Source of the DNA: Oceanipulchritudo coccoides
GTDB taxonomy: Bacteria > Verrucomicrobiota > Verrucomicrobiia > Opitutales > Oceanipulchritudinaceae
NCBI RefSeq assembly: GCF_010500615.1
Contig: NZ_JAAGNX010000002.1
Coordinates: 1,035,478 to 1,099,477, forward strand
Direction of reading: 5' to 3'
Length of the DNA: 64,000 nucleotides
In this document: piece after piece, positions 6,879-11,208 of the stretch
How the letters are laid out: each line of letters opens with the position of its first letter
How positions within the stretch are numbered: the first letter of the stretch is position 1
Notes under the pieces: generated by a model
What the model was told of the DNA's origin: nothing
The model's input: only the letters and a program-made list of their open reading frames with translations
The model's database searches: none
Position numbers and translations under genes: made by a program

Positions 6879-7424
6879 TTAATCAATTTTATTAGCCGTT
6901 GGGGAACGGAATTGAAGATAGATATACCAGAAGGTTCCAATGACGATTGCCGAGTCGGCGACATTAAAGGTGGGCCATCGATAAAAGGGCAGATGGAAGT
7001 CGAGGAAGTCGACGACATGGCCCCTGAAAAGGCGATCGATCGTGTTCCCGATGATGCCTCCCGATATAAGGCCGAAGCACCACTGTTGGGCTCGCATGGC
7101 CAGTTCCAGATGGTCGCGGAACAAAGCGATCAGGACGAGGACCAGGATGGCGAGCAGGATGAGCAACCAGGCAAACCCTTCAAGCATGCCCCAAGCCGCC
7201 CCGTAGTTGATTGAGTACACGATGTTGAAAAAACCCGGGATAATTTCCACCCCGCCAAATGGTGGGTAGAGGCCCATTGTCAGCCCGGAATAGTCAACGA
7301 TGATCCACTTGGACAACTGGTCCATGAATAGGATCAGGCTCAGGATGATCCAAAACCGGCAGTAACCGGAAGCAGACTTCGGGGAGGCGCTGGGGGCGCC
7401 CTGATCAGTTGTCCCCGTCGTCAT
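6879..7424 (-). CDS. lspA: Lipoprotein signal peptidase (LspA)
   Basis: Aspartyl protease of the inner membrane that cleaves signal peptides from diacylglyceryl-prolipoproteins. The 181-residue product has four hydrophobic segments. The two catalytic-Asp motifs are GNTIDRLFRGHVVDFLDFH and FNVADSAIVIG, matching the GNxxDR and FNxAD boxes. The start is the ATG at 7424 (MTTGTTDQG); a TTG at 7430 would add two residues. Either start lies inside the 3' end of the upstream DksA-like gene, so the two are translationally linked. The leader before the first helix is longer than in E. coli LspA. Confidence 0.95.
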   Translation of the reverse strand: MTTGTTDQGAPSASPKSASGYCRFWIILSLILFMDQLSKWIIVDYSGLTMGLYPPFGGVEIIPGFFNIVYSINYGAAWGMLEGFAWLLILLAILVLVLIALFRDHLELAMRAQQWCFGLISGGIIGNTIDRLFRGHVVDFLDFHLPFYRWPTFNVADSAIVIGTFWYIYLQFRSPTANKID

Positions 7425-8418
7425 CGCCAAAGGTGATCTTTTCGCCGGAAGGTTCGTTCAGGAATGCCCCGGCTTGACTCACCTTTTTGCGGGTATTTTG
7501 CTCAAATTCCTTTTGGCCTTCGACCGAAAAGCGAGTGAAGGGAACAGCCTCAAGCCGCTCAGGCTTGATGGGCTCACCGGTTACTTCACATTTCCCGTAG
7601 GTGCCCTTGTAAATCCTCTGGATGGCATCTTCGATTTCATTCAGTGCCTCCTGTTCGGCCGAAAGCAGGCTGAGGGCAAAGTCGCGATCGAAATTATCCG
7701 TTCCGGCGTCGACTGAAGTGGAAATGTCACCGGAGTCCTCCTTCTGTGAACGTTTCAATGTATCGCTGGAATGAAGGTTCAGTTCCTCACGGACTTCGTC
7801 ACGTAACTCAACGAGCAGTTTAAAATATTTCTGGAATTTGCGCGGTACGGTGCCGGTCTTGGCAACCGGTCCCTGCGTACTTGTATTCAAGCCGAGGATA
7901 TCATCCAGTGAAGCTGCGTGGTGGTGGCTCTTCTTCGGGGGAGTCACCTTTTTCAAGTCGACCGTCTCGGCCTTCTTTGCCACCTTCTTGGTCGCCGTCT
8001 TGAGTTTCTTCTTCTCTTCCTTTTCCAGCTTTTCCTCTTCCGCCCGCTTCTTGAGAACTTCCCGCACGTCCTCCATTGTGAAAATGATGCGGCTCAAGCG
8101 CTTCGATGGCGGTTTGAAAATAGCCGGTGTGTGAGAAGGATGCTTGATGAAATCCTTCACCGAGGGTCGCTTCTTCTTGGCCGGGACTTTTTCTTTGGCC
8201 GCCTTCTTAGGAGCCGCCTTTTTCGCGGTCTTTTTGGTTGCCGCCTTTTTGGGGGCTGCCTTCTTGGCCGCCTTTTTCGCTACTTTCTTGGGGGCCACCT
8301 TCTTGGCTGCCGTCTTTTTCGGGGCACTTTTACTGGCCGTCTTCTTTTTGACGGTTGTCTTCTTTTTAGCGGATTTTTTGACCGCAGACTTCTTAGTCGC
8401 AGATTTCTTACTGGGCAT
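7405..8418 (-). CDS. Histone H1-like Lys/Ala-rich tail fused to a DksA/TraR-type domain
   Basis: 337-residue protein in two parts. Residues 1 to about 85 are almost entirely Lys, Ala, Pro, Thr and Ser in KKAAPKKAA-type repeats, like bacterial histone H1-like tails, and should bind nucleic acid. Residues about 195-325 match the DksA/TraR family (RDEVREELN coiled coil, then AEQEALNEIEDAIQRI and GTYGKCEVTGEPI). Of the four zinc-finger cysteines only the first is kept: the second is Thr, and the last pair (usually CIDC) reads SVEG, so zinc binding is probably lost. Acidic residues are present near the coiled-coil tip (DAGTDNFDRDF). Probably a nucleoid- or RNA-polymerase-associated regulator. It sits between ileS and lspA in one leftward operon. 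Confidence 0.85.
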   Translation of the reverse strand: MPSKKSATKKSAVKKSAKKKTTVKKKTASKSAPKKTAAKKVAPKKVAKKAAKKAAPKKAATKKTAKKAAPKKAAKEKVPAKKKRPSVKDFIKHPSHTPAIFKPPSKRLSRIIFTMEDVREVLKKRAEEEKLEKEEKKKLKTATKKVAKKAETVDLKKVTPPKKSHHHAASLDDILGLNTSTQGPVAKTGTVPRKFQKYFKLLVELRDEVREELNLHSSDTLKRSQKEDSGDISTSVDAGTDNFDRDFALSLLSAEQEALNEIEDAIQRIYKGTYGKCEVTGEPIKPERLEAVPFTRFSVEGQKEFEQNTRKKVSQAGAFLNEPSGEKITFGDDDGDN

Positions 8419-8430
8419 ATCGATTAAAGG

Positions 8431-11208
8431 TTATGCTTGTTCAACAAATGGGGTGAGGGCATCGGCACAGCGCGGGCAGACAGCTCCGAAGGAGGTTGTT
8501 TGCTGCTCAGTGACCGTTCTCCAACAGCGCGGGCAACGTTCACCATCAGCCACGCTGACGTCAATGGAAACTGGGTCGGAATTTTCATCCGGGATGACTT
8601 TGACTGTGGAAACAATGTAAAGTTCCGCAAGTTGCTCGCTGTAATTTTCCAGCACGCGAGCCAGTTCAGAATCCGGTTTCACGGAAAGGGTGAGGGCCGC
8701 TTCCACGGATTTTCCAATCTTCTTGGCGGACCTCAAGGCTTCCAGCTTTTCGTTTACCGCATCCCTGATTTCCAGAAGTTGCTCCACTTCGCTGGCCGTT
8801 TTCTCCATTCTCCATGTACCGGGAACGCTGGGCCAGTCCTCCATATGGATGGAATCAAGCCCATTGTCCTTCTTCAGGCCCGCGTTGAGGGCTTCATCGC
8901 AGGTGAAGACCAGGATAGGCGCCCAGAGGCGGTTGAGGGTCTGGATGTGGTGGTAGATGACTGTCTGGGCTGACCTTCGCTCGTGGCAGTCTGTGCGGAA
9001 GGTGTAGAGCCGGTCTTTCAGGAAATCGTGGTATCGCGCGGACAAGGTCACCGTGTAGAAGCGATTGAGCAGCTGGTAGACGCGATGGAACTCGTACTTT
9101 TCGTAGGCCTCCGTAACGGAATCAGCAAGAACTGCGAGTTCGTTCAGGGCCCATTGGTCGAGCGGCGTCAAATCCTCCGGGGCAAGAAGATGTTCGTCGG
9201 CCTTGAAGTCGCACAAGTTGCCCAGTTGGAACCGGATTGTATTGCGGATGGTGCGATAGGTATCCGCAGTAATCTTGATGATTTCGGGCGAGATCGCCAC
9301 ATCGTTGCGATAATCAATGCTCGCTACCCAGAGTCGCAGAATGTCCGAGCCGAAAGTTTTGATCAATTCGAGCGGGGAGATGACATTTCCCTGGGACTTG
9401 GACATCGCCTTGCCTTCTCCATCGAGGACAAAGCCGTGTGTCAGGACACTCTTGAAGGGGGCGCAGTCGCGGGCGCCGACAGAGGTCAACAGGGCATGTT
9501 GAAACCATCCACGGTGCTGGTCGCTACCTTCGAGGTATAGATCAGCCGGTGCATGCAGCCGCTCGTCTTCTTCAAGGACAGCGACATGTGATGCGCCCGA
9601 ATCGAACCAGACGTCGAGAATATCAAATTCCTTCTCGTAGTCTTCCTCCTTCATCTCGGGTGGAAGAAAGTGACCGAGCGGTTCGGTATACCAGGCATCG
9701 GTGCCCTTTTTCGAGACAAGCTCGATGAAATTCCGGATAACATCCGCATTGAGGACAGATTCACCTGTCTTCAGGTCGCGGATGGAGGGGATCGGGACAC
9801 CCCAGTGGCGCTGACGGCTGATACACCATTCCGGGCGGCGTTCAACCATGCCACGGATTCGTTCCCGGCCCCAACCGGGAATCCATTCCACGTCATTATT
9901 AATCAGCTCGAGGGCCTTTTCGCGCACGCCGCCATCGGCCAGCTCCATGAACCACTGCTCCGTTGCCCGGAAAATGATGGGGTGCTTGCTTCTCCAGCTG
10001 TAGGGGTATTCATGCTCGACCGTCTTGTGGCCGAGGAGGAGGCCCCTCTGGTCAAGCAATTCGACGACCTTCGGATTAGCGTCAAAAACAAAGATCCCTT
10101 CCATTTCGGGGAATTCCTCGGTGTAGCATCCCTTGTCGTCAACCGGACAGAAGACCGGGAGGCCGTACGCCTTACCGATAATAAAGTCATCAGCACCGTG
10201 TCCCGGAGCCGTGTGCACACAGCCGGTTCCCTGCTCAAGGGTGACATGCTCGCCAAGCATGACGAGGCTCTCGGCCTCCTCAAATATCGGATGGGCGGCT
10301 TTGGCGCGATCGAAGTCAGTCGCCTTGAAGGTCGCAACGACCTCCGCCTCCTCCAAGCCCGTATCGGCCTTGAAGGATTCCAAAAGCTCCTTTGCGACCA
10401 CGTAATGCGCTCCCGAGGAAACCTTGACAGCCACATAGTCAAATTCCGGATGCAGACAAACGCCCAAATTTGCCGGCATGGTCCATGGGGTGGTTGTCCA
10501 GATGACAAGAGAAACCTCCTTCAGGTTGGCAACCGGGGCAATCGTTTCCGGATTGAGCAACGGCATCGCTACATAAATCGATGGGGATTTATGCGTATGG
10601 TATTCAATCTCGGCCTCTGCGAGGGCAGTCCGGAAGATAGGGTCCCAATGAACCGCTTTGTGTCCCTTCCGGATCAGGTTTTTCTCCACCAATGCGAGAA
10701 GCACTTTCAAGATGCCGCCCTCGTACATGTGGGTCACTGTCGCATACGGCGTGTCCCAGTCTCCAAGGATACCGAGGCGCTTGAATTGGGTGCGCTGCTT
10801 GTCAATCCAGCCCAAGGCGTACTTATGGCAGAGCTGGCGCAGTTCCTGGGGATCCATATCATGGATCTTGTCGCCGATTTGCTTCAGGATCTGCTGCTCG
10901 ATGGGAAGCCCATGGCAATCCCAACCGGGAACGTAGGGGGCCTTGAATCCCCGCATGCTTTTGTAGCGGATGACAAAATCCTTGAGGATCTTGTTCAGGG
11001 CGTGGCCCATGTGGATATCGCCGTTGGCGTAGGGTGGGCCATCGTGGAGAATGAAGGTTGGTCCACTGGCCCGGTGCTCAAGAATTTTTCCGTACAGGTC
11101 ATCCCCGTCCCATGAGGAAAATAACTCCGGTTCACGTGCGGCGAGATTTCCCCGCATCGGGAATTGGGTCTTTGGGAGATTGAGAGTGTCTTTCAGTTCG
11201 GTGGCCAT
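8431..11208 (-). CDS. ileS: Isoleucyl-tRNA synthetase
   Basis: Class I aminoacyl-tRNA synthetase charging tRNA-Ile, 925 residues, full length for the bacterial type. The HIGH motif is HMGH at residues 66-69 and the KMSKS motif is KAMSKS near residue 600. The CP1 editing domain lies between them (TTTPWTMPAN, HTAPGHGADDF). The C-terminal zinc finger is CPRCWR ... CPRC at the very end. The start MATELKDTLN is standard. First gene of the ileS, DksA-like, lspA run. No T-box-like leader is evident in the 100 bases upstream. Confidence 0.98.
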   Translation of the reverse strand: MATELKDTLNLPKTQFPMRGNLAAREPELFSSWDGDDLYGKILEHRASGPTFILHDGPPYANGDIHMGHALNKILKDFVIRYKSMRGFKAPYVPGWDCHGLPIEQQILKQIGDKIHDMDPQELRQLCHKYALGWIDKQRTQFKRLGILGDWDTPYATVTHMYEGGILKVLLALVEKNLIRKGHKAVHWDPIFRTALAEAEIEYHTHKSPSIYVAMPLLNPETIAPVANLKEVSLVIWTTTPWTMPANLGVCLHPEFDYVAVKVSSGAHYVVAKELLESFKADTGLEEAEVVATFKATDFDRAKAAHPIFEEAESLVMLGEHVTLEQGTGCVHTAPGHGADDFIIGKAYGLPVFCPVDDKGCYTEEFPEMEGIFVFDANPKVVELLDQRGLLLGHKTVEHEYPYSWRSKHPIIFRATEQWFMELADGGVREKALELINNDVEWIPGWGRERIRGMVERRPEWCISRQRHWGVPIPSIRDLKTGESVLNADVIRNFIELVSKKGTDAWYTEPLGHFLPPEMKEEDYEKEFDILDVWFDSGASHVAVLEEDERLHAPADLYLEGSDQHRGWFQHALLTSVGARDCAPFKSVLTHGFVLDGEGKAMSKSQGNVISPLELIKTFGSDILRLWVASIDYRNDVAISPEIIKITADTYRTIRNTIRFQLGNLCDFKADEHLLAPEDLTPLDQWALNELAVLADSVTEAYEKYEFHRVYQLLNRFYTVTLSARYHDFLKDRLYTFRTDCHERRSAQTVIYHHIQTLNRLWAPILVFTCDEALNAGLKKDNGLDSIHMEDWPSVPGTWRMEKTASEVEQLLEIRDAVNEKLEALRSAKKIGKSVEAALTLSVKPDSELARVLENYSEQLAELYIVSTVKVIPDENSDPVSIDVSVADGERCPRCWRTVTEQQTTSFGAVCPRCADALTPFVEQA

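Follow-up and report, generated by a model that had tools for sequence, protein, structure and literature searches.

An H1-tailed DksA-family protein with an incomplete zinc site in Oceanipulchritudo coccoides: a candidate RNA polymerase factor independent of zinc and ppGpp

DksA is usually studied as a partner of the alarmone guanosine tetraphosphate (ppGpp), and three described proteins stand close to the one considered here (papers are cited throughout by PMC number, for excerpts of their text). In Streptomyces, DdbA (SCO2075) consists of an N-terminal histone H1-like part and a C-terminal DksA part (PMC9043899), the former of which is said to compact DNA (PMC9043899, PMC7985256); under the spelling DbdA it is connected with DNA compaction and oxidative stress resistance (PMC7985256), and its original paper is cited beside another DksA-like protein, SCO6164 (PMC9739823). 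A zinc-free DksA, DksA2, is likewise in print (PMC9213440), and the role of DksA in Chlamydia is called largely unknown (PMC10597470). RelA/SpoT homologues (RSH) were counted at zero in Verrucomicrobia (3 taxa), Chlamydiae (15) and Planctomycetes (1) (PMC3153485), an absence repeated in a review (PMC8118318). Zinc-free DksA, H1-tailed DksA and the lack of RelA/SpoT in this superphylum are thus already published separately, and the titles and abstract starts of open-licence papers, among the matches listed, describe no H1-tailed DksA in Verrucomicrobiota. Here we analyse a dksA-type gene in a 64,000-nucleotide stretch of the verrucomicrobial genome of Oceanipulchritudo coccoides (contig NZ_JAAGNX010000002.1, positions 1,035,478 to 1,099,477 of the forward strand; hereafter the window). 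With moderate confidence, we read its product as an RNA polymerase secondary-channel factor that needs neither zinc nor ppGpp and is held near DNA by its tail. The features on which this reading draws are as follows.

7405-8418, minus strand: whole gene, an open reading frame (ORF) with an ATG start for an H1-tailed, zinc-less DksA-family protein of 337 residues; the only PF01258 match found in the genome.
8164-8418, minus strand: histone H1-like tail, residues 1-85, from composition, low model confidence and a weak HC2 match.
7471-7848, minus strand: DksA domain, residues 191-316, with coiled-coil hairpin, zinc-finger-like lobe and C-terminal helix, from profile, model and structure matches.
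7702-7719, minus strand: coiled-coil tip, residues 234-239, in which T234, D237 and G239 align with E. coli D71, D74 and A76.
7516-7590, minus strand: degenerate zinc site C277, T280, S298 and G301, from alignment to the four-Cys site.
7636-7638, minus strand: E261, aligned with K98 of E. coli DksA, a contact to the ppGpp phosphate; the charge is reversed.

An earlier note on this DNA had described about 85 residues of KKAAPKK-type repeats fused to a DksA/TraR domain, and both halves of that description hold. Residues 1-85 comprise 36 Lys, 21 Ala, 7 Pro, 1 Arg, one Glu and no Asp (net charge +36), and the DksA/TraR profile PF01258 matches residues 272-307 at 36.3 bits, exceeding its cut-off of 24.9. 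The composition of the tail lies far outside that of the other ORFs in the window, since the best 85-residue stretch contains 43.5% Lys in this ORF versus 12.9% in the next of the 121 ORFs of at least 100 residues. The possibility that a frameshift or a repeat artefact had produced the tail was considered and rejected: Tandem Repeats Finder reported only three overlapping arrays, short and degenerate (1.9-3.6 copies, within 8198-8301), and the basic tails of relatives are in frame with the domain. Two long antisense ORFs on the plus strand opposite the tail (7918-8427 and 8144-8620) are probably shadows cast by the lysine-rich frame and not genes.

The structure prediction that had been proposed as a check on the note returned a DksA fold. 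The AlphaFold model, derived from 50 sequences, has an overall predicted local distance difference test score (pLDDT) of 65 and a predicted template modelling score (pTM) of 0.42. Across residues 191-310 the block values are 84-96, except for 74 and 61 at residues 221-240, which form the tip, and a helix at 115-142 scores 80, 88 and 72; residues 1-80, at 42-49, are read from the model as disordered. As in DksA, the model shows a coiled-coil hairpin, a globular lobe and a C-terminal helix. Its best structural match is DksA2 of Pseudomonas (4ijj; Z 13.0, root-mean-square deviation 2.2 over 115 residues), followed by E. coli DksA (1tjl, Z 12.6), DksA within RNA polymerase complexes (7khi and 5vsw, Z 11.7) and Chlamydia DksA (6ptg, Z 10.3); other helical hairpins follow from Z 9.1 down, and helical folds can reach such values by chance. 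A Foldseek match (E-value 1.1e-5) and the best sequence match in the Protein Data Bank (PDB; 6ptg, E-value 1.6e-13) both agree with the DksA fold.

Within this fold, three of the four zinc-binding cysteines are replaced, as the note had stated (CEVT and SVEG): the ligand positions read C-T-S-G, and C277 is the sole cysteine in 337 residues. A search for zinc ligands elsewhere in the protein, which the note had named as a way to refute it, found none, all six His (93, 96, 165-167 and 216) lying outside the zinc-finger lobe. The missing four-Cys finger does not exclude the protein from the PF01258 superfamily, as zinc-free members such as DksA2 are known, and zinc loss need not cost the fold, given that the best structural match is this same zinc-free protein. 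By its modelled fold and its incomplete zinc site, the protein thus answers to the description of a zinc-free DksA.

Relatives were surveyed in two sets: 129 loci, comprising the window and 128 genomes with a match to the domain picked roughly one per genus, and 80 named relatives, nearly all of Opitutales/Opitutae type. Of the 129 domains, 50 have all four ligand Cys, 5 have three, 23 have two and 51 have one. The first ligand Cys is nevertheless present in all 209 aligned rows, or in 202/202 distinct sequences once seven named rows that duplicate unnamed ones are set aside, including every form without the other three; among the named proteins, 8 of them cut off by the end of their contig, it is also the sole Cys in 74/80. 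A ligand without partners would be expected to drift, yet this one is invariant, so that it probably serves some function other than zinc binding, perhaps in packing or in redox sensing. One alternative explanation builds on this residue and proposes a thiol redox switch, in which modification of C277 would alter polymerase binding. Zinc binding alone leaves the invariance unexplained, and in Salmonella the cysteines of DksA are reported, in excerpts of the literature, to undergo oxidation; on the other hand, an invariant Cys may merely pack in the core, and the protein offers no second Cys. Such a switch would be compatible with the secondary-channel reading, and we judge it very unlikely.

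Independence from ppGpp is suggested both by the genome and by the domain itself. RelA/SpoT (PF04607) finds no match in the O. coccoides genome, which is 99.42% complete, while 11/14 control genomes match, and across the phylum it matches in only 16/387 genomes. Of the 17 phylum matches, 14 sit in open frames of 255-389 residues, and the few enzymes concerned are perhaps of the short type. In E. coli DksA the contacts to ppGpp at site 2 are K98, R91, K139, L95 and R129 (PMC7676912), and the corresponding residues here are E, A, Q, A and V. Pocket positions were counted from the invariant Cys on the assumption of no gap between tip and Cys, an assumption supported by the tip Asp, which stands at an equal distance (40 residues) and is D or E in 128/129 loci. 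By this count the K98 position is Glu in 95/129 loci and Lys in 2/129; all 79 loci whose zinc site is incomplete have Glu there, whereas the 50 four-Cys (CCCC) forms mostly have Glu, Leu or Met. The contacts are not all gone everywhere, since the K139 position is Lys in 31/129 loci, mainly CCCC forms. Nor need loss of the pocket mean loss of function, because E. coli DksA with K98A or R129A still binds RNA polymerase and shortens the life of the open complex while binding no ppGpp at site 2 (PMC7676912). These replaced pocket residues are an addition to the published absence of RSH.

Taken together, these features suggest how the O. coccoides protein might work. Its coiled coil would reach toward the RNA polymerase active site, as that of E. 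coli DksA does; zinc would not be used, the lobe folding with the single C277 in the manner of Pseudomonas DksA2; and ppGpp would not be used either, no synthetase having been found and the residues of the site having been replaced. The N-terminal lysine-rich tail would bind DNA with no sequence preference, keeping the factor on the nucleoid or next to DNA that polymerase has bound, so that the tail, instead of an alarmone, would likely raise its local concentration at promoters; it may also contribute to DNA compaction. The architecture, the predicted fold, the missing zinc ligands and ppGpp contacts, the lack of a RelA/SpoT match and the spread through the phylum are computed results; polymerase binding, DNA binding and a takeover by the tail of the loading role of ppGpp are what we infer. 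The coupling of polymerase control to DNA binding that the note had suggested is plausible, with a precedent in Streptomyces DdbA.

The survey of the fusion across Verrucomicrobiota, also suggested in the note, found it to be widespread. The domain query matched 368/387 sampled genomes of the phylum, and a second search with PF01258 in 8 of the 19 non-matching genomes returned 0/8. A tail was scored where at least 50 residues precede the domain from the first ATG and the best 60 residues contain at least 25% Lys+Arg; start codons were guessed, so that single rows may err, as for L039, scored as tail-less despite an open frame of 421 residues. By this criterion 94/129 loci carry a tail, comprising 30/50 four-Cys forms and 64/79 others. 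Rarity of the tail-DksA fusion was accordingly rejected, and in this phylum such a gene is commonplace, not odd. Tail-less four-Cys forms of about 130-140 residues also exist elsewhere in the phylum, and in genome G119, of the same family, the first DksA-type frame is followed ~2 kb downstream by a second (L034:7470-8012, plus strand). When the 129 domains were placed on a tree, with the four ligand columns removed, the fewest changes were 5 for the zinc state and 22 for the tail. The independent pairs, 3 if restricted to supported branches and 5 if every branch is counted, showed no association of tail and zinc loss but were too few for significance, so that a linkage is not supported rather than disproved.

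This distribution bears on a second alternative, in which the protein is a nucleoid-associated protein first, its tail compacting DNA and its DksA domain being mainly structural, with little role in transcription. The tail is strongly H1-like in composition, the zinc site, the tip and the ppGpp site are all changed, and lists of proteins that promote compaction of the spore chromosome include DdbA (PMC11229371, PMC7985256). The conserved part of the protein, however, is the domain and not the tail: of 35 columns invariant in the 50 sequences, 32 fall in the DksA domain, 3 in the motif AASLDDILG and none in the tail. Moreover, 35/129 loci are tail-less by the criterion with the domain kept, and the D74 position of the tip is retained, being D in 102 and E in 26 of the 129 loci. 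We consider this alternative unlikely.

Other proteins of the same genome carry comparable tails. A search of the genome with residues 1-85 found, besides dksA itself in two frames, a sigma-70 gene (E-value 0.015), a 174-residue frame (E-value 0.033) and, weakly, a 309-residue frame (E-value 4.2). The sigma-70 protein is the housekeeping one and has an N-terminal H1-like Lys/Ala tail of ~110 residues (G000:C2, about 218320-220300, minus strand; loci L241 and L250). The 174-residue frame (L247, G000:C1:674352-674579, minus strand) begins with an H1-like stretch, after which comes a small domain, and adjoins genes that by eye resemble phosphate-uptake genes. In the 309-residue frame (L249, G000:C2:726503-726703, plus strand), a by-eye ribbon-helix-helix-like N-terminus accompanies a lysine-rich tail of ~190 residues of the KKVAKKPAKKK type. 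Also encoded are an omega-type subunit (PF01192), two HU-type proteins and a GreA-type factor; a GreA/GreB-type match (L242, G000:C1:734638-734859, minus strand) lies within an open frame of 623 residues, so that its product probably has a long N-terminal extension. Across the phylum, 48 genomes were searched for RpoD, 43 had a match at a strict limit and the 30 best were read. A basic tail was scored by the criterion in at least 15 of these 30 genes, which is a lower bound, as six were scored without their N-terminus and at least two of these (G342 and G285) show a tail.

Tails of this kind raise a third alternative, under which the protein is otherwise a zinc-less DksA and the target of its tail is not chromosomal DNA but RNA, polyphosphate or acidic partners. 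AlgP of Pseudomonas, which has a KPAA tail, joins polyphosphate granules and needs the tail for their spacing (PMC9239181), and one of the similarly tailed proteins described above is the one that adjoins the phosphate-uptake-like genes. DNA binding is, however, also described in excerpts of the literature for KPAA peptides and for a fragment of the AlgP tail, and similar tails in this genome are found on sigma-70 and on the ribbon-helix-helix-like protein. A target other than chromosomal DNA is, in our estimate, improbable.

Several results weigh against the favoured reading of a DNA-tethered secondary-channel factor. The protein falls below the cut-offs of the more specific NCBIfam models, scoring 48.7 of 115.5 bits for dksA (TIGR02420), 52.2 of 105 for DksA_like (NF033459) and 72.1 of 134.4 for the yteA subfamily. 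Its tip reads TxxDxG, and of the E. coli DxxDxA motif (named as in PMC9239242) D74 alone is kept; across the set of 129, H predominates at the D71 position (84/129) and G at the A76 position (116/129). The tip block, residues 231-240 (pLDDT 61), also has the lowest confidence anywhere in the modelled domain. For the tail, the HC2 profile (PF07382) matches residues 3-103 at 19.1 bits, below its cut-off of 40, and a search of the genome with HC2 does not list the dksA tail, though it finds sigma-70 and the 174-residue frame, neither over the cut-off. The tail may moreover be a loosely constrained tag, given that the tree requires at least 22 gains or losses of it, and the strengths of the DksA and RpoD tails show no correlation across 30 genomes (Spearman 0.27, p 0.16). 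Finally, titles and abstract starts among the matches listed in the literature yielded no experiment on a verrucomicrobial DksA.

A broader view would extend tethering to the whole phylum: ppGpp would have been dropped and DksA kept, alarmone control would have given way to tethering through H1 tails, and the lone Cys would report redox state. In such a scheme H1-like tails on DksA, and in many members on the housekeeping sigma factor too, would hold the transcription machinery on the nucleoid, and DNA compaction and polyanion state, not ppGpp, would set the promoter occupancy of DksA. We offer this view as speculation and hold it to be rather doubtful as a whole. With the domain in 368/387 genomes, a synthetase in 16/387 and the ppGpp contacts changed, the phylum is nonetheless a natural setting in which to study DksA on its own. 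The H1-like tails on DksA and sigma-70 provide a concrete idea of how transcription factors might be held on the nucleoid, and a redox role can be put to the test directly at the one invariant Cys.

Closer inspection of the remainder of the gene and of its surroundings identified the following features.

8431-11208, minus strand: ileS, upstream neighbour, named by eye from sequence and position.
7993-8082, minus strand: linker segment, residues 113-142, opening with the motif FTMEDV and including the modelled helix 115-142, from conservation and model.
7888-7917, minus strand: motif AASLDDILGL, residues 168-177, ahead of the DksA domain, from conservation.
7408-7428, minus strand: acidic C-terminus GDDDGDN, residues 331-337, from sequence.
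6879-7424, minus strand: lspA, downstream neighbour, named by eye from sequence and position.

Among the 50 sequences, F113 of FTMEDV is at least 90% conserved, and A169, L175 and G176 of the second motif are invariant. By pattern, FTMEDV occurs in 61/80 named loci and AASLDDILGL in 70/80, each being found in 28/129 phylum loci; both may be docking or capping peptides. Residues 196-337 have a net charge of -12, opposite to that of the tail, and acidic C-termini are seen in several relatives too; contact between the acidic C-terminus and the basic tail is possible.

The three genes ileS, dksA and lspA lie on one strand, with a gap of 12 nt between ileS and dksA and an overlap of 20 nt between dksA and lspA, whose frame (6879-7430) has its ATG at 7424, inside the end of dksA. 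The linkage to ileS and lspA that the note had described as an operon is therefore real, and its further proposal of constitutive expression is neither supported nor refuted by a promoter scan. Between 6700 and 11500 the scan found no promoter-like site on the coding strand and one on the plus strand, versus 2.0 expected, together with 12 terminator-like sites versus 5.9 expected (standard deviation 3.2); those on the minus strand are at 7254, 7369 and 9687, none of them between ileS and dksA. The scan says little about expression. With the two neighbouring proteins of the window as queries, ileS upstream and lspA downstream were found in 69/80 named relatives, lspA alone in 8/80 (every one of which runs off its contig) and ileS alone in 3/80. 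In the 129-locus set both neighbours were present in 34 loci, lspA alone in 66, ileS alone in 3 and neither in 26, and 19 of the 29 loci without lspA have the ligand pattern CSTC or CCTC. The dksA-lspA pair appears to be old in the phylum, as lspA is downstream in 48/50 CCCC forms, short tail-less ones among them. A mobile or phage origin of the gene was rejected, with 0 phage records matching and 3/72,556 plasmid records matching, none with a single place covering 80% of the query. An ileS/lspA neighbourhood is one that we also take DdbA to have.

Comparison with known systems places this protein among several partial counterparts. Its architecture is the one that defines DdbA, with an H1-like part at the N-terminus and the DksA domain at the C-terminus; DdbA belongs to another phylum and was compared by its published description, and it is listed as acting with ppGpp (PMC11942623), whereas here no synthetase was found and the contacts are replaced. 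DksA2 of P. aeruginosa shares the zinc-free DksA fold and a Thr at the second ligand position (CQET), but by eye it keeps Lys, Arg and Lys at the K98, R129 and K139 positions; the O. coccoides genome, in contrast, has one DksA, with one Cys and a long tail. E. coli DksA shares the fold, D74 of the tip and the first Cys, and differs in its four Cys, its ppGpp-site residues, its DxxDxA tip and the absence of a long basic tail. AlgP and PhaF of Pseudomonas are likewise bacterial proteins with an H1-like tail of the KPAA type (PMC9239181), though in these the tail is C-terminal, the domains are others and the function is granule positioning. In the domain itself, DksA of C. trachomatis (6ptg), the best PDB sequence match, also has one Cys at the site (CDVS...TVKS) and, by eye, Gln, Ile and Gln at the K98, R129 and K139 positions, and Chlamydia is similarly without RelA/SpoT (PMC3153485, PMC5811630); its DksA differs in being a PDB chain of 132 residues without the long tail that marks the protein described here.
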